NCBI GenBank assembly: GCA_030706735.1 | Contig: JAUZNZ010000027.1 | Coordinates: forward strand, 1 to 64,000 | Length of the DNA stretch: 64,000 nt | Reading direction: 5' to 3' | Source of the DNA: Bacteroidota bacterium | GTDB lineage: Bacteria > Bacteroidota > Bacteroidia > Chitinophagales > Chitinophagaceae | In this document: positions 255 through 54,370 of the stretch, one piece after another | How positions within the stretch are numbered: position 1 is the stretch's first letter | How the letters are laid out: every line of letters begins with the position of its first letter | Notes under the pieces: model-generated | Seen by the model: only the letters and a program-made list of their open reading frames with translations | What the model was told of the DNA's origin: nothing | The model's database searches: none | Program-made: the position numbers and the translations under genes

Positions 255-1202
255 TTATTTATGGTTTTGCTGTTGATCCGCGCTGTCGGCAGGCAAACCC
301 GATTCGAAGGGGAAATTCCGGTTTACCGGAGGAAGGTAATAGACGCTGGGCTTGGTTCCCAGGTCTTCCATCAGGCGATAGCCGGCCTTGTCCCTGATCA
401 GATCGCTGAACCGAAAGGTTTCGGCTCCGTTCGTCACCGAATCTTCATTCATATCGCCGAAGAAGAATACCCCGTTCGGGCAAGCGGAAACGCAATGCGG
501 AAGCATGCCCATACGAGCCATGTCGGGGCAGAAATCGCACTTGCTGACCGTACCTTTTTTTTGCGGCAAACTGGTCTCGCAGGAATAAGGTTGGGCGGCT
601 ACTTCGGCCGGGAGCTGAGGTTCCTCCCAATTAAAGACCCTTACCGTGTACGGACAGGCTGCCATGCAGAAACGGCATCCGATACACCGGTCGCTATCGA
701 TCAATACGATCCCGTCCTGTCGTTTGAAGGTGGCGTCCACCGGGCAAACCTTCACGCAGGGCGGCTCATCGCAATGCATGCAGGTAGTGGGCTCCCAATA
801 AGGCGCCTCATGTTCCGCGTCCTCCATGGGGAGTATCTTTATCCAGTTCTGCCCCGGGTTGAGTTGATGCGCGTGATTGCAGGCCCGCTTGCAGGCCCCG
901 ACATTCTTGCAACGGGACAGATCGATGACCATGACGAATTTCTTCCCAGCGATCCCCTTTCTTGCTTCGGCATTCGTAACTACGGGCAGATCGGGAACGG
1001 GCTTCAGGAAGGCCTTGTCCATCTCGATCACTTCCCCGTCGACCGACAATAACTTCACTTTTTCCCCGGAAGGTTTTGTTTCACTTCCCGCATAGCCCTC
1101 AAAGGGGTTCTTTCCGGATGTGCAACCGGCGGCAAGGCCGGCCAGGAGGCCTGTTGCCAGGAACTGCCTTCGCGATGAAGCATCATTATTTTCCATAATC
1201 AC
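255..1202 (-). CDS. 4Fe-4S dicluster ferredoxin subunit (DmsB/PsrB/NrfC-like) with Tat-type lipoprotein signal
   Basis: SSRRQFLATGLLAGLAAGC Tat/lipobox; four Cys clusters (CKNVGACKRACN, CMHCDEPPCVKVCP, CIGCRFCMAACP, CDFCPDMARMGMLPHCVSACP). Confidence 0.9.
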   Translation of the reverse strand: MIMENNDASSRRQFLATGLLAGLAAGCTSGKNPFEGYAGSETKPSGEKVKLLSVDGEVIEMDKAFLKPVPDLPVVTNAEARKGIAGKKFVMVIDLSRCKNVGACKRACNHAHQLNPGQNWIKILPMEDAEHEAPYWEPTTCMHCDEPPCVKVCPVDATFKRQDGIVLIDSDRCIGCRFCMAACPYTVRVFNWEEPQLPAEVAAQPYSCETSLPQKKGTVSKCDFCPDMARMGMLPHCVSACPNGVFFFGDMNEDSVTNGAETFRFSDLIRDKAGYRLMEDLGTKPSVYYLPPVNRNFPFESGLPADSADQQQNHK

Positions 1203-1456
1203 CGTTTATTTTTTTTAATCCAGCCCTGCAATTCCCCGTCCGTGACCTTCCGCTTATTGGAGGGAAGGAGGCTTTCGTCCACTTCGACCAATCGGCCATC
1301 TTCAGTGAGCATTCGTACCATTTTCGCCTTTTTTTGAGGCTTTTTGCGCCAGGCAAAAGGAAGGGAAGCGGCAATGAGTACGGTAGCCAGCCCGCCCAGG
1401 CCCCGGACGACAAAATTTTTTCGGGAGGTCTTGTCTTTGTTTTCCATGATTGCCAT
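1199..1456 (-). CDS. small protein resembling the N-terminal segment of the adjacent Fe-S subunit
   Basis: 85 aa; MAIMENKDKTSRKNFVVRGLGGLATV and KMVRMLTEDGRLVEVDESLLP parallel MIMENNDASSRRQFLATGLLAGLAAG and KVKLLSVDGEVIEMDKAFLKP of the neighbour. Confidence 0.65.
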   Translation of the reverse strand: MAIMENKDKTSRKNFVVRGLGGLATVLIAASLPFAWRKKPQKKAKMVRMLTEDGRLVEVDESLLPSNKRKVTDGELQGWIKKNKR

Positions 1457-1470
1457 TCAGTGTGGGGGAA

Positions 1471-1872
1471 TTATTTCTTCAGTGTCCTCACGTACACGAC
1501 GAGATTCCAGATATCCTCGGGGTCGGGGAGTTTCTTTTTGAATCCCGGCATATCGCCCCTGCCTTCGGAGATCTTGTAAAACAGGGAGCCGTCGCTTTGT
1601 GCCTGGGTCGTGGCCTTTGAAAAATCACCGGGTATGGTCTTAAGCTGTGCGGCCTTGGTGCCGTCTCCCAGGCCCAGTTTTCCATGACATGACTGGCAGT
1701 GCGTTCCCCAAAGCGCCTTTCCCGCAGAGATCGATTCCGCGTTCGATTTTACCGGGTTGGGCATTTTGGCATTCTTCTCCGGTGCGATCCAGGGTTGCGG
1801 CTGCTGGTTGAGCGTGAACGCCGCGCTGGTTGCCCCGAGCAAGGAGACGAGTCCGATGACGATCGTTTTCAT
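1471..1872 (-). CDS. periplasmic c-type cytochrome (monohaem)
   Basis: Signal peptide, CQSCHGKLGLGDG motif, distal Met region GDMPGFKKKLPDPEDIWNLVVYVRTLKK. Confidence 0.9.
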   Translation of the reverse strand: MKTIVIGLVSLLGATSAAFTLNQQPQPWIAPEKNAKMPNPVKSNAESISAGKALWGTHCQSCHGKLGLGDGTKAAQLKTIPGDFSKATTQAQSDGSLFYKISEGRGDMPGFKKKLPDPEDIWNLVVYVRTLKK

Positions 1873-1917
1873 TTTTATATTTTGTTTGATGAAACAAAGT
1901 TGTTTACCTGTGTACTC

Positions 1918-2850
1918 CTAGAAATTCCAAAGGCGCGTGATATTGAAGCCTATGAGAAATTCTCCCTTTGTAAAATCATTCTGATTCAACATGTTGTTGT
2001 CCTGGGGCAACAGGTTGCCATAATTTCCGGCAAATACCTGGAACGTGTGACCGCTGGTGCTCATTTCCAATCCGAAACTGATATTCGGGTGCGGGTTATT
2101 CATCGGGTGTTGCGTGAGGGGCTGGTCATAATTTGCAATGACGGCCGTCTTTGGAGCGATCTTGTACCGTCCGGAAAACGAGATCGCAAAATGGTCGTTC
2201 TTCATTTCGGGAAGGATCTTTCCATTCGCATCGATATACCCGGGTACATTATTGAAGTGTGAGAGGGACGGACTTACCTGTACGGATAATTTGTCGCTGA
2301 CCTTTCTGGCGATGATGACCTGGTTGAAGAAGGAGAAGCGATCGGAAGTGGTCACGAATAAGGTCGTTGCATCCTTCTTCCTGGTATCCATCACGGCATT
2401 GCCGAAGTAGGTGACGCTAACCGGCATGGCGCCGTCCTTTGTTTGTCTTAGCAGCGCGTATTTGAGATTCCAATCCACCTGCATCCGGTCGTTGCAGGCG
2501 CCGAATCCCACCTGCAAATCCTTTATGGGCGTATAGCTGAGGCCCAGGCGCATGATCGCGCCGGCGAATATACCGTAAAGATCGGATATGCCATTGTTAA
2601 CGGTTCCGAACCGGTGCTGGATATCGAATTCGAAGGTACCCTTGATCGGAACCATAACCGATTGATTGTCGATAAGATAATTGCCTTCGAACGTATTCTT
2701 TACGTAGGATCTCTTTTTCTTTTCGACGGTCGGGGGCGGGGCGCCGGTGGAGTCCTGCGCCATGGTACTGCCGGTCGCCATGAGATCGAATATGAACAAC
2801 AGGGCGAGGCCCGGTAAAAAGGATTTCATATTTATGTGTTTCATGTTCAT
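1918..2850 (-). CDS. outer-membrane beta-barrel-like protein (DUF5777-like)
   Basis: Signal peptide, alternating beta pattern, ends ...GEFLIGFNITRLWNF; embedded in cytochrome operon. Confidence 0.65.
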   Translation of the reverse strand: MNMKHINMKSFLPGLALLFIFDLMATGSTMAQDSTGAPPPTVEKKKRSYVKNTFEGNYLIDNQSVMVPIKGTFEFDIQHRFGTVNNGISDLYGIFAGAIMRLGLSYTPIKDLQVGFGACNDRMQVDWNLKYALLRQTKDGAMPVSVTYFGNAVMDTRKKDATTLFVTTSDRFSFFNQVIIARKVSDKLSVQVSPSLSHFNNVPGYIDANGKILPEMKNDHFAISFSGRYKIAPKTAVIANYDQPLTQHPMNNPHPNISFGLEMSTSGHTFQVFAGNYGNLLPQDNNMLNQNDFTKGEFLIGFNITRLWNF

Positions 2851-2854
2851 GAGT

Positions 2855-3253
2855 TTAATTGTTCTTGGCGCCCTGGGTGATCCAGGCCAACATCAGGCCA
2901 TTGATATTGGACGGGTTATTCGGGGCACCCAACGGCATTGTCGCGGATTCCTTGCCCGTCAGCCACAGGTAAACCGTGCTGTTGGCTGGCGTTGCGAGGT
3001 TCGTGAAATTGCCATTGATCAGGGAGTTGTATGCATTTGCTTCCAGGAGGTTAGGGCTGACGCTTCCGTTATGGCAACCGCTTTTGGCACAACTCGCGAC
3101 AAGGATGGGTATGATATCGGTCTTGAAGCTCACGGTTCTTGTTACCGCCGGCGTGTTATCGATCAGTATGGTGGTGTTCTTTGTGCAGGCCCCCAGGTAA
3201 AAAACGAGCACTATGATGACCACCCCGCAAAATTTAATTCTATGTCTTGACAT
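2855..3253 (-). CDS. lipoprotein with cytochrome-c-like CX4CH motif
   Basis: Lipobox LGACTKN; ILVASCAKSGCHNGSVSPNLLEANAYNSLING. Confidence 0.7.
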   Translation of the reverse strand: MSRHRIKFCGVVIIVLVFYLGACTKNTTILIDNTPAVTRTVSFKTDIIPILVASCAKSGCHNGSVSPNLLEANAYNSLINGNFTNLATPANSTVYLWLTGKESATMPLGAPNNPSNINGLMLAWITQGAKNN

Positions 3254-3291
3254 GATCCGTTATTGAAAAATGAGAGAACAAGTCAGGCATG

Positions 3292-4590
3292 CTATTGCTG
3301 GAAATGCAAGAGCAGGCCAGGTTGAATGCCGTGCTGGTTATTGGATTTGTTCCAGATAGCCATGCCAAAGGGCTGGTCATCCAACTTAGAAAAGTCGATA
3401 TCCTGTTTAAGTACATCCGGGGTTTTCAGCAGGCGTTTGTATTCAACCACCCATCCGGTACCGGTGTAAACCGACGCAGCGGCGATATCCGCTCTGCCAT
3501 TGATGAGCGGGGAAGCGATAAAGCTTGGGAAACACTTCGGTCCATCCCCGCCGTACACGCCTGCCACCTGGAGATAATCGGTGCCTACGTTGGGATCGAT
3601 GGTCCCTCCATTGTAGGAAAGGACCCCATTGGCGTCCACCGCGGTGATCTTAGCCGCTTTGCCGCCTGCCAACGTATCCGTTGCCAATATGTAGTTGTAA
3701 TTGCTGGCGCCCGGGATAATCCAGGTCGGGACATTCACGGACGTGGAGGTACCCGTAATTTTCATTGATTGCCTGTTGTTAATGGACCCGCCACTTGCCG
3801 GCGAAATGTAGGAAGAGGAGAAGGGTGTCGGAGGAGTTTGGTCGTCGAGATGGCGGCCATTGCCATTGCCGCCCACGGTATCCGTTACGGCGGGACCACC
3901 TGCCCAATCCTGGTAATTGTCATCGAACTGTGAGTAAACCTGGTCTTTGCTCAGGTGCAGCCACCACATATCAATTTTCTCATTGGCTCCATTTGTATAG
4001 TGGTTACCACTTGCATTGGGCACCCAGATGCCCGCATAATTTTTATACGGGGTAAATACATGACAACTGGCATAGCAGGTAATCGATTCGAATTTGGGGG
4101 TAGAATGGTCGATATTCCATAGCATGGCTAATTTATCCTCGCCCCATCCGTCCCGTACCAGCGTGCCGTTGACGTCATAAAGGCGGCTGCTTGGCTCTTG
4201 TGCCCAGCGTTTGGCAACAGGATCGAAATACCAGGGCGTTACGGCCACACTTTTTGTAGTGTCCCTCCATTCCGCCAGGAAATAAATGTATTTGCTATCA
4301 TACATGGAACGAATGGTGGCGGGATATTGTTCGCCGATATAGCCTGCAAAAAGGCCATTACCCGGATCGGGAACTGTTGGCGTGACCGATAACCTGGGCG
4401 CATTCGCCCAAATGGCATCGATCGTTCCATCGATGATGGGCGCCGTGCTGGTCTTGTAAGAAGTCAGCACATTGGTGGCGACAGTCGTCCCGGTAGTTAT
4501 TACCTGGTCGTTCTTGGTACAATACGTCAAGCCAATCGCCGACAATACGATGAGCGCAATAACGATCGAGATCTTCTTAAAACTTTTCAT
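3292..4590 (-). CDS. ethylbenzene-dehydrogenase-related haem-binding (DOMON-like) lipoprotein
   Basis: Lipoprotein signal; APIIDGTIDAIWANAPRLSV, YDSKYIYFLAEWRDTTKS, CYASCH, WVVEYKRLL; typical of the EB_dh family. Confidence 0.75.
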   Translation of the reverse strand: MKSFKKISIVIALIVLSAIGLTYCTKNDQVITTGTTVATNVLTSYKTSTAPIIDGTIDAIWANAPRLSVTPTVPDPGNGLFAGYIGEQYPATIRSMYDSKYIYFLAEWRDTTKSVAVTPWYFDPVAKRWAQEPSSRLYDVNGTLVRDGWGEDKLAMLWNIDHSTPKFESITCYASCHVFTPYKNYAGIWVPNASGNHYTNGANEKIDMWWLHLSKDQVYSQFDDNYQDWAGGPAVTDTVGGNGNGRHLDDQTPPTPFSSSYISPASGGSINNRQSMKITGTSTSVNVPTWIIPGASNYNYILATDTLAGGKAAKITAVDANGVLSYNGGTIDPNVGTDYLQVAGVYGGDGPKCFPSFIASPLINGRADIAAASVYTGTGWVVEYKRLLKTPDVLKQDIDFSKLDDQPFGMAIWNKSNNQHGIQPGLLLHFQQ

Positions 4591-4719: not shown

Positions 4720-4759
4720 GCTGCGAGGAGTTGAAACAGGAGTATATGGGGTTTATGCC

Positions 4760-4824
4760 TGATTAAGTTCATAACTCCTTATGATCAGGGTCTTGATCAG
4801 GCGGGTTGGACGAACCTACATTTG
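4760..4824 (+). promoter_or_regulatory. Phased dyads + -7 box for hsp20
   Basis: TGATTAAGTTCA 4760, TGATCAGGGTCT 4782; TACATTTG 4817-4824, 33 bp from the proximal dyad centre. Confidence 0.8.
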
Positions 4825-6079: not shown

Positions 6080-7435
6080 TTATAAATTCAGGGTGTATCT
6101 TACTGAAGCGCGAAGATAGGGGTAGGTCTTATCGACGTTGGCATAATGCCGGTAAACCCCTTCCAGGGTGAAATACCCGGGCTCGAGGCATAGGGAGAAG
6201 TGCCTGACCAGTTCGGCGCTGAACTCGCTGGTGATGGCATGCAGGAAGTAATGGGAGGCGCTGCCATTGATCGTCTTGAGCCAGCCGCCGCGGTAATTAA
6301 TGCTGTAGGAGAAGCGGTCCGCAAAATTGATCCTGAAATTGCCATTGACGCCAATACCGGTACAATAGTCGTAATCCCTCCCCTCGTAATGGTATGTATC
6401 GGGCACGGCCGCCAGGATCACGGGGCCTCCTCCGATCGTGGTATTGATCCTGATCTTGCGTGGAAGGCCGAACTCAGAGAAGACGAGCAGCTTCACGCTT
6501 TGCCCGCTATAGAAAAAGGCCTCGTTATGGATGAAGTCATAATTGGCGGACAGCAGGGCCAGATGGCGGCTATTTTTGGTTTCGCCGATCCGCCAGCCGG
6601 TCAGCGAGCCGTAGACGCTGATGATGTTGAGCTTGGAGCTATCGTCCTTCCCTAACTCGGCATTGACCGAAAAGTAGCTGAACGGCGTCCTGTAGTTCAC
6701 GAACGGCGAGCCGTACAGGAATCTGACGTGCCCATACAGCCCAAAGCCGGAGCTCGTGTGGTCAGCACGAAACTTTCGCATTCCCAGATCGAGCTCGGCG
6801 AAAATCGGCGTAGAGTCCTGCATTCCCGAATTGGCCCGGACCCGCCCCCATCTCCCATCGATGATCCGGTCAAAACCATTCGCCGGATCGATGATGAGGG
6901 CCAGCACCTCACTGGCCTGTCTCCGGAAGCCCCTTCGGCGTTCGTCTATGATCTTATGAGCCAGACGGTGGGTCATCTCGCCAAGCACGATCCCACCCAT
7001 GCCCGTATTGATGAAATCGTTCGGAGCCGGCGCCTGGTTCTCACCGAAAGTCTCCCATATATAGCTGCCTGCGAAGGCTGCGGGGGCCGACTGCCAAAAA
7101 CTATAGCCATTCGAGCGAAAGGTATTGTAGAATATACTGCCATGGTAGGGATGGCCGAATTGATTGGTCGTAAAGCCGTCGTCGTCCCAGGCCCAGCTGT
7201 GGGGGCTGAGGTTATCCCGTATATTCCCGAATGAAATGTGCGTATAATCGACATTGCGGATATACCGGTCGACCAACCAGGGTGTTGCCTCGGCCAGTCC
7301 GAGATCCAGGGCTCCCCGGCCGAACCTTTTTGCGGGCAGGCTGTCAACGGGCTGACCAAGAGCAGATGACTGCAGGGCCAGAACGGCCAACAGGCACCGG
7401 AAGATCGCGAGCTTGAAAGACGGTCGGGAATTCAT
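6080..7435 (-). CDS. DUF3943-like outer-membrane-associated protein
   Basis: Signal peptide; NQFGHPYHGSIFYNTFRSNGYSFWQSAPAAFAGSYIWETFGE, GGIVLGEMTHRLAHKI. Confidence 0.7.
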   Translation of the reverse strand: MNSRPSFKLAIFRCLLAVLALQSSALGQPVDSLPAKRFGRGALDLGLAEATPWLVDRYIRNVDYTHISFGNIRDNLSPHSWAWDDDGFTTNQFGHPYHGSIFYNTFRSNGYSFWQSAPAAFAGSYIWETFGENQAPAPNDFINTGMGGIVLGEMTHRLAHKIIDERRRGFRRQASEVLALIIDPANGFDRIIDGRWGRVRANSGMQDSTPIFAELDLGMRKFRADHTSSGFGLYGHVRFLYGSPFVNYRTPFSYFSVNAELGKDDSSKLNIISVYGSLTGWRIGETKNSRHLALLSANYDFIHNEAFFYSGQSVKLLVFSEFGLPRKIRINTTIGGGPVILAAVPDTYHYEGRDYDYCTGIGVNGNFRINFADRFSYSINYRGGWLKTINGSASHYFLHAITSEFSAELVRHFSLCLEPGYFTLEGVYRHYANVDKTYPYLRASVRYTLNL

Positions 7436-7439
7436 TTGA

Positions 7440-7535
7440 TAAAAATACTACTGTCCTTTGCGCAGTCCCATGACAGCAATCAGACCGGCGTTTGACCTAG
7501 ATCAATATGTGGGGGATAAGGGAGGTCTATCTTTA
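7440..7535. promoter_or_regulatory. Symmetric bidirectional promoter with two phased dyads
   Basis: TGACAGCAATCA 7471, TGACCTAGATCA 7493 (within FNR-box-like TTGACCTAGATCAA); TATTTTTA (minus, 7440-7447) and TATCTTTA (plus, 7528-7535), each 33 bp from its proximal dyad. Confidence 0.85.
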
Positions 7536-7552
7536 ATTAACAAACCCTCATT

Positions 7553-8650
7553 ATGAATATCCATTTTTCTAAAGAAGAAAAGGAAGTGGTAGGCGCGGTG
7601 AAATACCTGCCTGCCGTTTCGATCATCCTTCCGTTCGAACCTGTCATGTCGCTGAAGAGCGAGCTCGAGCACCGGCTCAAGATCATGCAGGGCAAGGTAG
7701 AATCGGAGTTGATGGCGGCGTATCCGGCAGAAAAGGCGATGCCGGTGATCGTCAAGCTGAAGAACCTCGTGAAAGGCCTTAATTTCAATACCCGAAAAAA
7801 AGCGCTCGCCCTGTTTGTATCGCCTATTGTGGAAAAAGTATTTTATCTGGATATCCCCGTAAACGAAAAGATCGTGATCGACGATTCCTTCGAAATACGG
7901 GACCTGGTCTACAGCAAGAAGCAGGTTATCCAATACCTCGTCCTTCAGCTGAGTGCGGAAGCATCGAGGTTATACCTGGGGAATTGTTCCAGCTTCGTGC
8001 TGATCAAGTCCAATGTGCCGGAGAATATGCATGCCTATGACCGCGACCTGCCTGAGAGGACGGCGAATTTCTCGGACCCCGGCGAGCAAAAAGAGATCTC
8101 GCTGGATCGGTTCCTGCGCCATCTGGATCAGGGTTTAACCCATATTCTGCGCGCCTATCCCCTTCCCGTATTCGTCATGGGCCCTGAAAAGGTGATTGGA
8201 CATTTTAAGAAGATCACCAAGAATGGAAAAAGTCTCGTTCAGTCCGTCCATGGGAATTACCTGCATGCCACGGAACCGGAGATCCGCCAAGCCCTGGCCC
8301 CTTATCTGGTGGAATGGCAGGCCATCAAGGAACGTGCCTGCCTGATGCAGTTGGAAAAGGCCAAGGGCGAGGACAAGCTGGAGTATGGGATTCGTCAGGT
8401 ATGGCGGGCAGCCGCGCGAAAGAATGGTCGTTTGCTGGTCGTGGAAAAGGACTTCATGGTGGCGGCGCGACAGGGACCGCATGGTGACGATATCTCGAAG
8501 GAGGATTTCACCACGAACAATGCTTTTTATATCAAGGATGCAGTCGATGACGTCATGGAAAAGGTATTGGCTGCCGGAGGAGATATCGAATTCGTCAGCG
8601 ATGGGGCACTAAAGGACTATGGTCACATCGCATTGGTGCGGTTCTATTAA
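7553..8650 (+). CDS. baeRF-type (bacterial archaeo-eukaryotic release factor-like) ribosome-hibernation factor
   Basis: ALALFVSPIVEKVFYLDIPVNEKIVIDDSFEIRDLVYSKKQ; C-terminal GGDIEFVSDGALKDYGHIALVRFY. Confidence 0.7.
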   Translation: MNIHFSKEEKEVVGAVKYLPAVSIILPFEPVMSLKSELEHRLKIMQGKVESELMAAYPAEKAMPVIVKLKNLVKGLNFNTRKKALALFVSPIVEKVFYLDIPVNEKIVIDDSFEIRDLVYSKKQVIQYLVLQLSAEASRLYLGNCSSFVLIKSNVPENMHAYDRDLPERTANFSDPGEQKEISLDRFLRHLDQGLTHILRAYPLPVFVMGPEKVIGHFKKITKNGKSLVQSVHGNYLHATEPEIRQALAPYLVEWQAIKERACLMQLEKAKGEDKLEYGIRQVWRAAARKNGRLLVVEKDFMVAARQGPHGDDISKEDFTTNNAFYIKDAVDDVMEKVLAAGGDIEFVSDGALKDYGHIALVRFY

Positions 8651-8658
8651 GTCAACTC

Positions 8659-10605
8659 ATGAAAAAATCACCCGATAATGAGATGGGTAGCCCGCGGGGG
8701 CGAAAAAAAAGGATCGGGATCTGGCTGTATGCCGGCATCCTGACTCTTATGGCGGTCATTTTTTTCCTTAGTCCGATCAGCCGGCCCTTTGTCAGGGAGA
8801 CCAGCTGGAATGAATTCAAGGACAGCCTGCTGAACCGGAAGGCGGTGGAACGCCTGGAAATCGTCAATAATGAAAGCGTCAATGTATATCTCAAGCCCGG
8901 CCTCTCGTCGGACCCGGGCCCTCATTACCGGTTCCGGATCGGATCGGTGGAATCGTTTGAAAGAAGGCTTGACGAAGCGGAAAAGAATTTTGCAGAGAAA
9001 GACAAGGCTGTAGTTACCTATACGACAAAAACGAATTGGCCCGGTTCTCTATTGGGCTGGATCCTTCCTTTGCTGTTCCTCTTCTTTGTCTGGCGCATGT
9101 TACTACGCAATCCGGGAGGAACCGGCGGCTCCTCGCCTTTCCATTTCAGCGACTCGACCGCGACGCTCATGGAAAAGGGGAACAAGAGTCCGGTAACCTT
9201 CCAGGATGTGGCCGGACTGCAGGAAGCCAAGGTAGAAGTCAAGGAGATCGTCGATTTCCTGAAGGCCCCGGAGGCCTACACAAAGCTTGGAGCAAAGATC
9301 CCCCGGGGGATCATTATCGTCGGACCGCCCGGGACGGGCAAGACGCTATTGGCAAAAGCCGTGGCCGGAGAAGCGCAGGTGCCGTTCTTTTCCCTTTCCG
9401 GCTCCGAATTCGTAGAAATGTTCGTCGGGGTAGGCGCTTCGCGTGTGCGCGACCTGTTCAGAAAGGCGAAGGAAAAGGCACCTTGCATCATATTCATCGA
9501 TGAAATAGACGCGGTGGGTCGATCACGAAGTGCAAATGCCTTCTATACCGGGGCCAATGATGAACGGGAAAGCACGTTGAACCAATTGCTCACCGAGATG
9601 GACGGGTTCAGCACCAATAGCGGCGTGATCGTGCTGGCCGCAACCAACCGCGCCGACATGCTCGATCCTGCGCTACTGCGCCCCGGACGGTTTGACCGGC
9701 ATATCTACCTGGAATTGCCCAATCTGTCGGAAAGGGAAGCAATCTTCCGGGTTCATATGAAGCCTTTGATATTAAAGGACTTTGACGAGGCCCGGACCCT
9801 TGCCGCGCAAACGCCCGGCTTTTCGGGAGCGGATATTGCCAATATATGCAATGAATCGGCCCTGATCGCCGCGAGAAAGAAACGGGATGCTGTGACCAGG
9901 CAGGATTTCACGGATGCGATCGACCGGATCGTGGCCGGCCTGGAAAAAAAGAGCAAGATCATCACCGACGCCGAAAAAAAGATCATTGCGCACCATGAGG
10001 CCGGCCATGCCATCGCAAGCTGGTACCTGAAGCATGTAGATCCTCTGGTCAAGGTATCCGTCATACCCAGGGGGAAGTCCCTCGGATCGGCCTGGTACCT
10101 GCCGGAAGAACGCCAACTGAAGACGTCCGCCGAATTTAACGATATGATCTGTGCGAGTCTGGGAGGGCGGGCAGCCGAGGAGATCATGTTCGGGGACGTC
10201 TCATCGGGCGCGTTGGACGACCTGGAAAAGGCAACCCGGGACGCCTATATGATGGTAGCCTATTATGGCTTCGACCCCCGGTTGGGACCTATCAGTTTTT
10301 ACGATTCGAGCGGAAGGATGAACGGCAGTTTTCAAAAACCTTACAGCGAAAGCACCGGGCAATTGATCGACGAGCAGGTGCGCAAGCTGATCGGAGCGGC
10401 GTATGAGCGCACCAAGGAGCTACTGATACGGCACAAGCCGCAGCTGATGGCCCTCGCTGGGCTCCTGTTACGAAAAGAAATGGTCTTCAAGGCAGACCTC
10501 GAAGCCCTATTGGGCGAACGGGGAGAGGAGAAGGGTCAGGAGGCCGGCCGGCTTATTGCTCCGGTTAACGTATTCGGCTTTGATCACCTTGAACCGGATC
10601 ACTAG
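8659..10605 (+). CDS. ftsH: ATP-dependent zinc metalloprotease FtsH
   Basis: Walker [14 protein letters not shown], Walker [17 protein letters not shown] zinc motif; N-terminal TM segments. Confidence 0.95.
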
Positions 10606-11701: not shown

Positions 11702-11841
11702 CAAATATACGGCGGGTTCGCGATGGCCCAATTGACTATGAGCAGTTTATCCCCTGATTGTGGTCTATGGCGGGCATGACCAGCTTCATACCGGCGATTG
11801 ATCGACATCCGGTCACGGCGTCCCGCTGCATCCTATATTTG
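11702..11841. promoter_or_regulatory. Symmetric bidirectional promoter with four phased dyads
   Basis: TGACTATGAGCA 11733, TGATTGTGGTCT 11755, TGACCAGCTTCA 11777, TGATCGACATCC 11799 (all 22 bp apart); TATATTTG on both strands (11702-11709 minus, 11834-11841 plus), each at 33 bp. Confidence 0.85.
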
Positions 11842-15539: not shown

Positions 15540-15604
15540 TAAAAGTAAACCCGGGGTGCAGTGAATCCGGTGATCCAGGTCAACCCGTGGGATGATCGTG
15601 ATCA
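15540..15604 (-). promoter_or_regulatory. Phased dyads + -7 box for the Usp pair
   Basis: TGATCCAGGTCA 15571, TGATCGTGATCA 15593; TACTTTTA (15540-15547 minus) at 33 bp. Confidence 0.85.
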
Positions 15605-17442
15605 CTATTAAATACATGGTTGATCTACAAGGGGAAGGGCCGCTGTTAATAAGGATGCTTTTGTGGATAAAAGTGCTTAGCTTTGGTGTATGTCGAAAGA
15701 GGAACGACCGGGACCAAAATTTACGGCATGCTCACATCCTATTCAAACAGTCTGCTTTGACCTTCAAGAAGACCTTCCTTGCGCTGTCCGGCGTGGTCTT
15801 CATCAGCATTCTTGTGTTGAGCGTGCTGACTTTTCAATATAATAAGGCCAATGAAAATACGTCCTTCTGGGTCCGCCACACGCTGACCGTCCTGGATCAA
15901 ACGGAGCAGCTCATTTCCATGGTCGAGCAAGATGGATCCAGCGGCCTTTCGCCCGATGCGCAATCCGGTATACAACGGTTAAAAGAGCTGACCGGAGATA
16001 ATCCGTTGCAGCAATCCCGGATTGACTCTTTGGCGTTCTTTTTCGGCCGGCTGGCGGAATCCCCCCAATATCTATCCCGCTCAAGGATCTTGCTGGACAA
16101 GATCCGCCAGGAAGAGAACGGACTATTGGCCGTACGGGAGGCGAGTAATTCCTCCAGCAGGCATTTGCTAAGAAATGCCGTGATGCTCTTGCTTGGATCT
16201 ACCTTCCTTCTTCTGGTCGCGCTCTTTGTCATCCTCCTTTATCATTTGAACCGGAGAAAGAAGGCTGAAAAAAGATTGGATGAAGCGGAAGAGCGATTGG
16301 GTGTGATCCTTCGAAATGTAAAGGACCATGCTATTTTCATGATCGATCCCGGGGGCCGGGTCATGAGCTGGAATAAGGGCGCCGAGGCTATCAAGGGATA
16401 TGCTGAACAGGAAGTGATCGGCAAACCTATTTCTATTTTTTATACGGAGGAAGGGAACCGGAATGGGGAACCTGCGCATAATTTGCGCAAGGCCGCTGAA
16501 GAGGGCCACTTCGAGACGGTGGGGTTGCGCAGGCGAAAAGACGGCTCGGAATTCTGGGCCGCGGTATATTTGACCGCCCTGTATGATGATGACGGAAAAT
16601 TGAAGGGTTTTGCCAAGATCACACGGGACATCACGGAACAAAAAAGGGCTGAGGACGAAATGACCAGGGGGCTATCGCGTGAAAAAGAGTTGAACGAGAT
16701 GAAGTCCCGCTTCGTCAGCCTGGCCTCCCATGAATTCAAAACGCCGTTAAGCGTCATTCTTTCATCCGCTTCACTAATAGAAAAATATCAGTTGCCGGGC
16801 ACGGAAGAAAGACGGAAGAGGCATGTGCAGCGGATCAAATCCAACGTGAGCAACCTCACCCAGATCCTGAATGACTTCCTGTCGATCGAAAAGCTGGAAG
16901 GGGGGTTGGTGAATAATGCGCCGGCCATGATGGACTTCCCCGATTTCGTCAGAGAGATCATACAGGACCTGCATGAGGCGTGCAAGGCGGGGCAAGAGAT
17001 AGACCTGCGGATCAGCGGTCGGCCTGAAAAGATCTTTGTGGATGCGCACCTGCTACGCAATGTCCTCATCAACCTGCTTTCCAATGCGATCAAATATTCT
17101 CCGGAAAACAGCGTCGTCCGATTCCATATCAGCTTTGAACCCAGGTGTCTGACCTTTACGGTCGCCGACGATGGCATTGGCATCCCGCTCGCCGACCAGG
17201 AACATTTGTTCGACCGGTATTTCCGGGCGAGCAATACCAGCGGCATTTCCGGAACCGGCCTGGGTTTGAGCATTGTGAAGAAGTACCTGGAGATACTCGG
17301 GGGCAGCATTTATATGAAGAGCGCTCCGGGTGAGGGTACCCACTTTACGGTTATTTTGCCTTTAGCAGAGCCGCCGGAAAAAGATCATCCGAGCCAGCAA
17401 CCGGCGCAGCAACCTTCGATGGAACCGCATTTCCGCCCATGA
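15592..17442 (+). CDS. PAS-domain sensor histidine kinase (start uncertain)
   Basis: CHASE3-like N-terminus, PAS SWNKGAEAIKGYAEQEVIGKPISIFYTEEGN, HisKA ASHEFKTPLSVILSS, HATPase GTGLGLSIVKKYLE. The listed ATG lies inside a regulatory dyad. Confidence 0.9.
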   Translation: MIVITIKYMVDLQGEGPLLIRMLLWIKVLSFGVCRKRNDRDQNLRHAHILFKQSALTFKKTFLALSGVVFISILVLSVLTFQYNKANENTSFWVRHTLTVLDQTEQLISMVEQDGSSGLSPDAQSGIQRLKELTGDNPLQQSRIDSLAFFFGRLAESPQYLSRSRILLDKIRQEENGLLAVREASNSSSRHLLRNAVMLLLGSTFLLLVALFVILLYHLNRRKKAEKRLDEAEERLGVILRNVKDHAIFMIDPGGRVMSWNKGAEAIKGYAEQEVIGKPISIFYTEEGNRNGEPAHNLRKAAEEGHFETVGLRRRKDGSEFWAAVYLTALYDDDGKLKGFAKITRDITEQKRAEDEMTRGLSREKELNEMKSRFVSLASHEFKTPLSVILSSASLIEKYQLPGTEERRKRHVQRIKSNVSNLTQILNDFLSIEKLEGGLVNNAPAMMDFPDFVREIIQDLHEACKAGQEIDLRISGRPEKIFVDAHLLRNVLINLLSNAIKYSPENSVVRFHISFEPRCLTFTVADDGIGIPLADQEHLFDRYFRASNTSGISGTGLGLSIVKKYLEILGGSIYMKSAPGEGTHFTVILPLAEPPEKDHPSQQPAQQPSMEPHFRP

Positions 17443-31866: not shown

Positions 31867-31962
31867 TAAAATTACCGAGCCTGCCGGGCGGCCTTTATGA
31901 CCTTTCTCATGCCGGATGGAGATAGTCGTCATGTGCATGGGCGATGCGGGCGTCTAGTTTTG
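31867..31962. promoter_or_regulatory. Symmetric bidirectional promoter with two phased dyads
   Basis: TGACCTTTCTCA 31898, AGATAGTCGTCA 31920; TAATTTTA (31867-31874 minus) and TAGTTTTG (31955-31962 plus), each at 33 bp. Confidence 0.8.
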
Positions 31963-31987: not shown

Positions 31988-32206
31988 ATGAAAAGGAATG
32001 TAGGCGTGGCAGACCGGATCATCCGCATGATCCTGGCCCTCATATTGATCGCATTGGTCTATTTCGGCGTGATCACCGCTGTCTGGAGCGTAACCGTGGC
32101 CTGGATCCTGGCTGCCGTATTCGTCTTTACGTCCATTGCGGGTAGCTGTCCTTTGTATTCCCTCTTCGGGATCAGCAGTTGCCCGCCCAGGAAACAGGCA
32201 CATTAA
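31988..32206 (+). CDS. DUF2892 (YgaP-like) inner-membrane protein
   Basis: MKRNVGVADRIIRMILALILIALVYFG...GSCPLYSLFGISSCP. Confidence 0.85.
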   Translation: MKRNVGVADRIIRMILALILIALVYFGVITAVWSVTVAWILAAVFVFTSIAGSCPLYSLFGISSCPPRKQAH

Positions 32207-32296: not shown

Positions 32297-33619
32297 ATGA
32301 GGATGAGAAGGCGGACATTATTGGTACTCGGTGGCGGCCTTGGGGCAGGAGGCGTGGCGCTCATGCTGATCCCGGTGCTCGACAGGCAACAGCCTGTCAC
32401 TCTACCCTTCGTTCTCGGCATCTTTTTGCTCCTGTTTGCCGTCGTCCTTCTACTTGATCATTATTTCGCGAGGCGCAAGGCGGCGGAAAGCGATCGGTTG
32501 GAGTTGGAGCAGCGGCTCAGCTTTCTCGTGCAGCATATCAAGGATTATGCGATCTTTCTGATCGATCCGGAGGGACGTGTCATGAGTTGGAACAAAGGGG
32601 CCGAGCAAATCAAGGGTTATACCGAGGCCGAGATCCTGGGCAAGCCCATTTCGATCTTTTACACGGAAGAAGACAATCAGCGCGGTGAGCCTTTTCTCAA
32701 CCTCAAGCGTGCCCTCGATGAGGGGCGATATGAGAGCGTGGGCCTCCGCAAGCGGAAGGATGGCACCATATTCTTTGCCGACGTCGTCTTTACTCCCATT
32801 TATGACGACCGGGGCGGACTCAAGGGATTCATCAAGATCACGAGGGATATTACCGAACAAAAGAAGGCGGAGGAGGACATGCTCAGTACCCTGCAACGGG
32901 AAAAAGAGTTGAATGAAATGAAGAGCCGTTTCGTAACCCTGGCATCCCATGAATTCAAGACCCCATTGAGCGTTATCCTTTCCTCTGTGTCGCTGATCGA
33001 AAAATATCCGGAAACGGAACAGCAGGACAAGCGACTCAAACATATTCATCGCATCAAATCCAATGTCGCCAATCTGAGGCAGATCCTGAACGATTTTCTT
33101 TCCCTGGAAAAGCTGGAAGTCGGCATCATCAAGAATGAGCCCGCGCAGGTTAACCCGGCCGAGATCGTTCGGGAAACGGTCCTGGATCTGGAACCCTCGC
33201 TGAAGGAAGGGCAGCAAATCCGGTTGCACTCCGACGGCAGGACCCGGTTCATTGAGCTGGACGCCCAGCTTTTGCGGAATGTCCTGAATAACCTGCTATC
33301 CAATGCCATCAAATACTCCCCCGAGCAGGGAGAGATCGACTGCCGCCTGCATTTCCGGCCGGACGCGTTGGAGATCGAGATCAGGGACCAGGGCATCGGC
33401 ATCCCTCCGGAAGAGCAGGAGCACCTATTCGAGCGATTCTTTCGCGCCTCGAACAGCACCGGGATCCCGGGCACGGGGCTGGGCCTCAGCATTGTAAAAA
33501 AATACCTCGACCTGATGGGCGGCCGGATCGGCCTGGTCAGCATTCCCTGGCAGGGGACGACCGTTACCGTGACCTTGCCTGCCGGCGATCCTTTTGACCA
33601 TAATCAGCGCGAGGGCTGA
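32297..33619 (+). CDS. PAS-domain sensor histidine kinase
   Basis: PAS SWNKGAEQIKGYTEAEILGKPISIFYTEEDN; LASHEFKTPLSVILSSVSLIEKY; GTGLGLSIVKKYLD. Confidence 0.95.
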   Translation: MRMRRRTLLVLGGGLGAGGVALMLIPVLDRQQPVTLPFVLGIFLLLFAVVLLLDHYFARRKAAESDRLELEQRLSFLVQHIKDYAIFLIDPEGRVMSWNKGAEQIKGYTEAEILGKPISIFYTEEDNQRGEPFLNLKRALDEGRYESVGLRKRKDGTIFFADVVFTPIYDDRGGLKGFIKITRDITEQKKAEEDMLSTLQREKELNEMKSRFVTLASHEFKTPLSVILSSVSLIEKYPETEQQDKRLKHIHRIKSNVANLRQILNDFLSLEKLEVGIIKNEPAQVNPAEIVRETVLDLEPSLKEGQQIRLHSDGRTRFIELDAQLLRNVLNNLLSNAIKYSPEQGEIDCRLHFRPDALEIEIRDQGIGIPPEEQEHLFERFFRASNSTGIPGTGLGLSIVKKYLDLMGGRIGLVSIPWQGTTVTVTLPAGDPFDHNQREG

Positions 33620-38724: not shown

Positions 38725-38856
38725 TAAAATAACGCCGATTAGTGAAGGCTGACCATGAGGTGTGTCAAGGGGGTGCGTGACTTTGATCACCTGAGCCTTA
38801 TCATATGGCGGGATGATTTAGATCAGGGCTTGGCGCCCCATGCCGGAATATCTTTA
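38725..38856. promoter_or_regulatory. Divergent promoter with two pairs of phased dyads
   Basis: TGAGGTGTGTCA 38756 + TGACTTTGATCA 38778 (22 bp); TGAGCCTTATCA 38792 + TGATTTAGATCA 38814 (22 bp); TTATTTTA (38725-38732 minus) and TATCTTTA (38849-38856 plus), each at 33 bp. Confidence 0.8.
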
Positions 38857-46639: not shown

Positions 46640-46704
46640 TAAAAATATCCTGAACAGGAGCCGCAGGGAATGATCTCCGTCAGGGCTTATCCTGATCCTC
46701 CTCA
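46640..46704 (-). promoter_or_regulatory. Phased dyads + -7 box for the cco operon
   Basis: TGATCTCCGTCA 46671, TGATCCTCCTCA 46693; TATTTTTA (46640-46647 minus) at 33 bp. Confidence 0.85.
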
Positions 46705-46746
46705 TCTGAAAATGGGCGCCCCGGGTTGACACCGAGGCGCCCCGCA

Positions 46747-49197: not shown

Positions 49198-49294
49198 GCA
49201 AAGTAGCCGGCATCGGGCGGACGACCCATGACCTCAATCAGGGAAAACCCTGATCTCCGTCAGTTGGGGGAATTGCAGTAATTATGTAGTATTG
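49198..49294. promoter_or_regulatory. Divergent promoter ccoI / REC-CRP regulator with two phased dyads
   Basis: TGACCTCAATCA 49229, TGATCTCCGTCA 49251; TAGTATTG 49287-49294 (plus, 34 bp); weak TACTTTGC (49198-49205, minus). Confidence 0.65.
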
Positions 49295-49326: not shown

Positions 49327-50403
49327 ATGCGTAAACTGCTAGTAATCGACGATCACGATGACATTCGTGAGAATATTGCCGAGATCCTGAGCCTGTCCGG
49401 CTATGAGGTTTTTACGGCCCCCAATGGGAAAAAAGGGGTGGAGACAGCGCTGAAGGAAAAGCCGGAGCTCGTCATTTGCGATATCATGATGCCCGAGCTG
49501 GACGGATATGGCGTATTGCACCTGCTGCGAAAGAATGAATCGACAAGGGATACCCCGTTCATTTTTTTGACGGCGAAGACCGAGCGTTCCGATTTCCGGA
49601 AAGGCATGGAGATGGGAGCGGACGACTATATCACCAAACCTTTCGACGATATCGAGTTGCTCAACGCCATCGAGATCCGGCTCAAGAAGTACGATATCCT
49701 GCATGGCAAATATTCGGGAGATGAGAAGGGAGCCAGCGAGCTTATTTCAGATCTGAGCACGTCCGGCGTATTACGGCTCGACGTGCAGACGGCGGAAACC
49801 CAGGAACTGTCCAAGAAGATGAATCTCTACCAGGAGGGCAAGCGGCCCAAGGCGCTGTATTATGTAAAGAGCGGGAAGATCAAGGCCTTCCGGATGAACG
49901 AGGACGGAAAGGAATACATTACCAACCTTTATGTTGCCGGAGATTATATCGGTTATCTGCCGCTGATGGAAAACAAATCCTATGAGGACTCGGCCGTCGT
50001 GCTCGAGGATGCCGAAGTAGCTCTCTTTCCCCGCGAAGAATTCCTGGACGCGCTGTATCACGATCTGGCCATCGCCACAAAATTCATCAAACTCATTGCC
50101 AGGAACGTGCAGGAGAAGGAAGAACGGTTGTTGCAGCTTGCTTACGGATCGTTGCGCAAGCGGGTCGCCAAGGGGTTATTGGACATCCATGCTAAATTTG
50201 CCACTGCGCAGGCCGATCAAAAAAACAGTTCGACGCGTGTTGCCCTTGCCATCTCCCGGGAGGATATCGCCCAGTATATCGGCACGGCCACCGAATCGCT
50301 GATCCGCACGCTTTCAGACTTCAAATCCGAACACCTCGTGGACATCCTTGATGGGAAGATCCATATTACCGATGTGAAGAAACTGGAGAATTTATTGTAT
50401 TGA
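49327..50403 (+). CDS. response regulator receiver fused to CRP/FNR-type sensor fold and HTH
   Basis: REC: VIDDHDD, ELVICDIMMPELDGYG (D52), FLTAK, ITKPF; CRP fold GKIKAFRMNEDGKEYITNLYVAGDYIG; HTH ALAISREDIAQYIGTATESLIRTLSDF. Confidence 0.95.
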   Translation: MRKLLVIDDHDDIRENIAEILSLSGYEVFTAPNGKKGVETALKEKPELVICDIMMPELDGYGVLHLLRKNESTRDTPFIFLTAKTERSDFRKGMEMGADDYITKPFDDIELLNAIEIRLKKYDILHGKYSGDEKGASELISDLSTSGVLRLDVQTAETQELSKKMNLYQEGKRPKALYYVKSGKIKAFRMNEDGKEYITNLYVAGDYIGYLPLMENKSYEDSAVVLEDAEVALFPREEFLDALYHDLAIATKFIKLIARNVQEKEERLLQLAYGSLRKRVAKGLLDIHAKFATAQADQKNSSTRVALAISREDIAQYIGTATESLIRTLSDFKSEHLVDILDGKIHITDVKKLENLLY

Positions 50404-51750: not shown

Positions 51751-51846
51751 TAAAAGTAGGGCATGACGGAGCCCGCCCATATGACCAATCTCATCTCATG
51801 GAAGGATTTAGGTCATGTGCGAGGGGAAGGTATGGGGGTAGTTTTG
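51751..51846. promoter_or_regulatory. Symmetric bidirectional promoter with two phased dyads
   Basis: TGACCAATCTCA 51782, GGATTTAGGTCA 51804; TACTTTTA (51751-51758 minus) and TAGTTTTG (51839-51846 plus), each at 33 bp. Confidence 0.85.
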
Positions 51847-54264: not shown

Positions 54265-54329
54265 CAAATGTAATGTGCTGCCGGTAGGCCGCACCTGATC
54301 CAAATCAGGGGCGAAACTGATCTAACTCA
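54265..54329 (-). promoter_or_regulatory. Phased dyads + -7 box for hemN
   Basis: TGATCCAAATCA 54296, TGATCTAACTCA 54318; TACATTTG (54265-54272 minus) at 33 bp. Confidence 0.9.
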
Positions 54330-54370
54330 TTTTTTGAGATGGACAGGAGTCTAGGGCGGATAGTTGGATC

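Follow-up and report, generated by a model that had tools for sequence, protein, structure and literature searches.

Twin Crp/Fnr-type sites appear to form a one- or two-sided promoter cassette for low-oxygen and stress genes in a family of soil and water Bacteroidota

Pairs of palindromic Crp/Fnr-type sites, set 22 bp apart and at a fixed distance from one or two -7 boxes, probably constitute an activation cassette that is used on one side or on both and is served by a Crp/Fnr-family activator, most likely a receiver-Crp hybrid protein. The geometry of the cassette is exact to the base and conserved among relatives, its symmetric form is optional, and twin sites and hybrid gene tend to occur together across genomes of the family. 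The analysis started from a window of 64,000 nucleotides (contig JAUZNZ010000027.1, assembly GCA_030706735.1), to which all coordinates below refer unless another locus is named.

The symmetric form is exemplified by the 96 bp at 7440-7535, situated between the gene of a DUF3943 protein (6080-7435, minus strand; Pfam PF13084) and that of a baeRF family 3 protein (7553-8650, plus strand; Pfam PF18845), the latter followed downstream by an FtsH protease gene (8659-10605, plus strand; Pfam PF01434 and PF00004). A leftward -7 box, TATTTTTA (7440-7447, minus strand), belongs to the DUF3943 promoter with a predicted start at about 7435, and a rightward -7 box, TATCTTTA (7528-7535, plus strand), to the baeRF-ftsH promoter with a predicted start at about 7540. 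Between them lie dyad L, ATGACAGCAATCAG (7470-7483, centre 7476.5), and, 22 bp from it, dyad R, TTGACCTAGATCAA (7492-7505, centre 7498.5), both of the TGA-N6-TCA type with six of six half-site bases. Each dyad is 33 bp from a TANNTTTR -7 box, the boxes being on opposite strands, and the centre-to-centre distances read box, 33, dyad, 22, dyad, 33, box, with 88 bp between the boxes. The original prediction had described two dyads, opposite-strand -7 boxes at 33 bp and 88 bp from box to box, all of which is exact; the dyads that it gave at 7471 and 7493 are real, these positions being half-site starts and not dyad centres. The predicted DUF3943 transcript would begin at the A of its own ATG (7435-7440) and might lack a leader; at further cassette promoters (7553, 31849, and 51864) the predicted leaders repeatedly measure about 13 nt.

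The same prediction placed repeats of the 88-bp geometry at 31867-31962 and 51751-51846, and both were recovered with one mismatch each. The former comprises a box at 31867-31874 (minus strand), dyads at 31897-31910 and 31919-31932, and a box at 31955-31962 (plus strand), with a TonB gene on its left and, on its right, the gene of a YgaP-like/DUF2892 membrane protein (31988-32206) and a PAS histidine kinase. The latter, between an acetyl-CoA hydrolase gene on the left and a universal stress protein (Usp) gene on the right, comprises a box at 51751-51758 (minus strand), dyads at 51781-51794 and 51803-51816, and a box at 51839-51846 (plus strand). One dyad is imperfect (5/6) in each of these two copies. 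An enlarged mirrored version at 11702-11841, flanked by genes of a CDP-alcohol phosphatidyltransferase (left) and a thioredoxin (right), holds four dyads in 22-bp steps (11732, 11754, 11776, and 11798) between boxes at 11702-11709 (minus strand) and 11834-11841 (plus strand). Its boxes are 132 bp apart, the one place with this distance, and 88 bp is the clear mode among divergent boxes. A different layout was observed at 38725-38856, between Usp and PAS histidine kinase genes, where two twin pairs (38755/38777 and 38791/38813) stand 36 bp apart as if each direction had a cassette of its own.

The twin dyad is also the unit of promoters that face one way. The window contains 18 dyad pairs at 22 bp, all of them intergenic and most facing in one direction, and other spacings from 12 to 44 were found 0-3 times. 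One-way promoters of this kind precede hsp20 (4759-4824, plus strand; dyads at 4759 and 4781, box at 4817-4824, no mirrored box), a Usp gene (15540-15605, minus strand; box at 15540-15547, dyads at 15570 and 15592), ccoNO (46640-46705, minus strand; box at 46640-46647, dyads at 46670 and 46692), and a radical-SAM (hemN) gene (54265-54330, minus strand; box at 54265-54272, dyads at 54295 and 54317). Across 895 kb that had been fetched by the hybrid protein only, the 22-bp dyad spacing occurred 75 times and any other spacing at most five times, with a box 23 bp after the pair in 32 cases and at most two at other offsets. A set of 587 kb, made up of the window, further stretches of its own genome and protein-fetched loci and, like the former, not chosen for spacing, gave 154 pairs at 22 bp versus at most six at any other spacing (both strands). 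The one-sided cassette was present in 254 of 399 genomes of the family, with control matches amounting to a handful at most. A scan restricted to perfect boxes gave fewer sites than half-site scoring.

When the free positions of 86 family sites are tallied, the resulting core is Fnr-like, TGAY-N4-RTCA. The boxes match TANNTTTR at one fixed offset from the dyads, consistent with the sigma-A -7 box TAnnTTTG of Bacteroidota, and two of the boxes at the mirrored sites reported here end in A, not G. In Flavobacterium psychrophilum the TAnnTTTG box has been mapped at -12 to -5 (PMC9723704), and the dyads would therefore be centred at about -41.5 and -63.5. At all sites the box centre is 33 bp from the near dyad, which corresponds to -41.5 if the F. 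psychrophilum box position applies, the start sites here being predicted.

Several counts bear on whether the mirrored layout exceeds chance and whether it is a promoter type of its own. Allowing up to three mismatches, the full 96-bp mirrored pattern was found at eight places in the 5.05-Mb genome versus none for the pattern read backwards, and with up to two mismatches it was found in 46 of 150 relatives (28 of 101 genera), the reversed control giving zero in every genome. The probability of meeting a perfect box at any one intergenic position is about 0.00065. In four genomes of the genus the layout between acetyl-CoA hydrolase and Usp is kept without insertion or deletion, and 21 of 24 element columns of their alignment are identical versus nine of 72 spacer columns (p = 2.6e-11), a comparison in which element columns are favoured since three of the four genomes were found via the pattern itself, the gene pair being the independent part. 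Of 85 family sites, a number in which mirrored pairs are counted from both sides, 14 have a perfect mirrored box at the exact offset, and none of 79 other offsets has more than one. Neighbouring genes, the orientation of which was called by a simple longest-frame rule, were divergent rather than co-oriented in a ratio of 12:1 at family sites with a mirrored box versus 18:36 at those without (p = 1.3e-4). As had been anticipated from a few promoters, the mirrored position scores only 1-3/6 where a divergent partner is absent (hsp20, ccoNO, hemN, mlaE, desaturase, and Usp near 15.5 kb). Upstream of baeRF orthologues the twin dyads often persist, mostly without a mirrored box. Such a box is optional and follows the divergent arrangement of genes, and the symmetric form is a special case of a cassette that is one- or two-sided.

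Given reversed-pattern controls at or near zero, and spacers that have diverged around boxes and dyads that were kept, it is scarcely credible that the mirrored layout is a chance alignment or an artefact of composition. A dedicated bidirectional promoter, in which the mirrored pair co-expresses two genes and each dyad serves only its own nearest promoter, has more in its favour: the exact mirror geometry in those 46 of 150 relatives, the conservation of both boxes between acetyl-CoA hydrolase and Usp in four genomes, and the association of mirrored boxes with divergent genes. We nevertheless regard it as unlikely, because the same pair with the same 22 bp stands at one-way promoters and the frequency of two-box cassettes is close to that expected from independent boxes, with three observed versus 2.3 expected in the window and two of 74 versus about 3.5 expected in the hybrid loci (32 boxes on 148 sides). 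Moreover, the far dyad is perfect more often than the near one (18 versus 3 discordant cases, p = 0.0015) and is therefore not redundant; this fits an interpretation in which a strong far dyad is an anchor that helps the weaker near site. Of the bidirectional promoter originally proposed, the recurrent symmetry between divergent genes thus stands and the notion of a pair made for two-way transcription does not: since one-way promoters share the 22-bp pair, the dyads are a general -41.5/-63.5 cassette to which the second box is an add-on.

The regulator of the twin sites is most likely a 358-residue hybrid protein (P0001) encoded in the window at 49327-50403 (plus strand), in which domain matches identify a receiver domain (PF00072, E = 3.7e-29) joined to a cNMP-binding fold and a Crp-type helix-turn-helix (PF00027 and PF13545, both over cut-off), as in members of the Crp/Fnr family. 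PDB look-ups returned only domain-level relatives. Twin sites were present in 74 of 103 hybrid-positive versus 10 of 37 hybrid-negative genomes (odds ratio 6.9, p = 3.5e-6), a correlation over related genomes that ignores phylogeny and genome size; 29 hybrid-positive genomes were without a strict twin site and 10 hybrid-negative genomes had twin sites. Thirteen of the 56 listed twin sites have a hybrid gene no more than 15 kb away, and nine sites lie within 400 bp upstream of a hybrid start codon (50 loci). In the window, twin dyads at 49228-49263 (6/6 and 6/6, with imperfect boxes) separate a cation-ATPase gene (ccoI/FixI type, minus strand) from the hybrid gene (plus strand), which suggests that the latter is autoregulated. 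The window hybrid and the other hybrid loci that were fetched all have the recognition helix GTATESLIRTLSDF. Among cultured relatives, Chitinophaga rupis DSM 21039 and Sediminibacterium magnilacihabitans DSM 22423 have twin sites next to their hybrid gene. A PAS histidine kinase encoded at 32297-33619 (plus strand) is a candidate partner, as suggested by a homologue that adjoins the hybrid gene in the relative L251. Twin sites (18 in 64 kb) and histidine kinases both occur densely in the window, the regulon being gathered around the candidate regulator gene.

Genes with the cassette, here and in relatives, include ccoNO, the ccoI/FixI-type cation ATPase, the radical-SAM (hemN) gene, Rrf2, several Usp, Hsp20, and thioredoxin, as well as a multicopper oxidase-cytochrome c (NirK-type) gene facing that of a ScdA/hemerythrin protein; together they point to low-oxygen and nitrogen-oxide respiration and to stress. 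The mirrored twin-dyad site between the NirK-like and ScdA/hemerythrin genes (L037, G000:C53:6657-6752) is about 3 kb from a gene of a Cys-type FNR. An operon-like run at 255-4590 of the window (minus strand), encoding a 4Fe-4S subunit, a cytochrome c, a DUF5777 barrel and an ethylbenzene-dehydrogenase-type haem subunit, resembles a respiratory enzyme of the DMSO-reductase family.

We propose that two activator dimers would bind next to each other, on the same face of the DNA, at the two Crp/Fnr-type sites (TGAY-N4-RTCA), the 22 bp between them being two helical turns, and that the receiver-Crp hybrid would be switched on through phosphorylation by the PAS histidine kinase. The near dyad would then occupy the class II position at -41.5 and the far dyad a class I-like position at -63.5. 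Because the cassette is palindromic it would offer an identical face in either direction: a single flanking box would make a one-way promoter, and boxes on both flanks a two-way promoter, as proposed for DUF3943/baeRF-ftsH, TonB/DUF2892-kinase and acetyl-CoA hydrolase/Usp. Activity in both directions is predicted at the mirrored sites, where start sites would be about 105 bp apart, roughly the minimum for two class II polymerase complexes back to back. More tentatively, and with somewhat less than even confidence, we consider that the phosphorylation-controlled fusion may bind only as two adjacent dimers joined by receiver contacts on the rigid 22-bp twin, a symmetric, enhancer-like and Bacteroidota-specific block that would fire whichever flank or flanks carry a -7 box and could be extended in 22-bp steps (four dyads, 11732-11811).

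Two other readings keep the cassette and differ in the protein that reads it or in the sign of its action. Activation mainly by an FNR-type iron-sulfur protein, or by some other Crp/Fnr paralogue, seems rather unlikely, although the half-sites are FNR-like, the targets are related to oxygen and the mirrored NirK/ScdA site has a Cys-FNR gene in its vicinity. In addition, eight of the 10 hybrid-negative genomes with twin sites encode a receiver-less Crp protein with GTATE[ST][TA]IRLLSE, nearly the same recognition helix, mostly with N-terminal cysteines (L292-L299); the remaining two are only 60-72% complete. A likely history is that of one DNA specificity to which two kinds of sensing became attached. 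Within the family, however, twin sites are associated with the hybrid and not with the Cys-type FNR of this genome (odds ratio 1.09, p = 0.85), which was rejected as the regulator; its helix reads GTTYETVFR as opposed to GTATESLIR, and inspection of this genome's Crp proteins turned up no GTATES protein lacking a receiver. Other Crp/Fnr proteins of this genome could read similar half-sites. The cassette might instead repress, with the dimer pair over -41.5 and -63.5 blocking both promoters until released. Crp/Fnr proteins can repress from sites that overlap promoters, and the site near the hybrid's own promoter could represent negative autoregulation. We consider repression very improbable, as the near dyad holds the classical activating position to the base and the box keeps one exact offset, whereas repression would tolerate more positions, and as the targets are expected to be induced at low oxygen. 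Activation by the hybrid is the reading we prefer, its direction inferred from where the near dyad lies (-41.5) and from what the target genes are.

In class II Crp/Fnr promoters of Escherichia coli a palindromic TGA-N6-TCA site is centred at -41.5, over the -35 region. The sites described here have this palindromic form and a predicted centre at -41.5, with a second site at the class I-like position -63.5; in contrast to the E. coli promoters, the rigid 22-bp twin is the standard unit of a whole regulon, is combined with the Bacteroidota -7 box, and forms a palindromic cassette usable from both sides. FNR proper shares with this system TGAT-N4-ATCA-like half-sites and microaerobic targets, whereas the hybrid is without the N-terminal cysteine cluster, having no Cys in its first 45 residues and a receiver domain in place of the cluster. 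CRP of E. coli has been placed at -40.5 and -60.5 (PMC12825309). In the E. coli bidirectional promoters of Warman et al. (PMC12825309; Nat Microbiol 2021) one -10 element is common to both directions, which compete for polymerase. As in those promoters, a single symmetric DNA element would here give divergent transcription; however, what the two directions have in common is the symmetric activator site, and two -7 boxes 88 bp apart, with predicted starts about 105 bp apart, set it outside the shared -10 type. The rhizobial FixLJ-FixK2 cascade (PMC9104804) likewise joins two-component control to a Crp/Fnr-type activator of microaerobic genes, the receiver and Crp/Fnr parts being fused in one protein in the present case. 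Unlike FixL, the candidate kinase has a PAS domain without an obvious FixL-type proximal histidine, as read by eye from the sequence. A literature search for tandem Fnr/Crp cassettes, receiver-Crp fusions or this regulon in Bacteroidota returned nothing on point, which is weak evidence as subscription papers were mostly outside the search.

Transcriptional control by oxygen and nitrogen oxides is poorly described in non-gut Bacteroidota, although these are abundant in soil and water. The base-exact grammar of box, 33, dyad, 22, dyad, 33, box makes the regulon readable in hundreds of genomes, puts forward a regulator and a kinase as candidates, and sharply predicts which divergent gene pairs are co-activated. 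The cassette is, further, a natural test case for the division of polymerase between opposite directions by a palindromic activator site without a shared -10 element. Across this family of soil and water Bacteroidota, the twin sites appear to be an on-switch for genes of low-oxygen respiration and stress.
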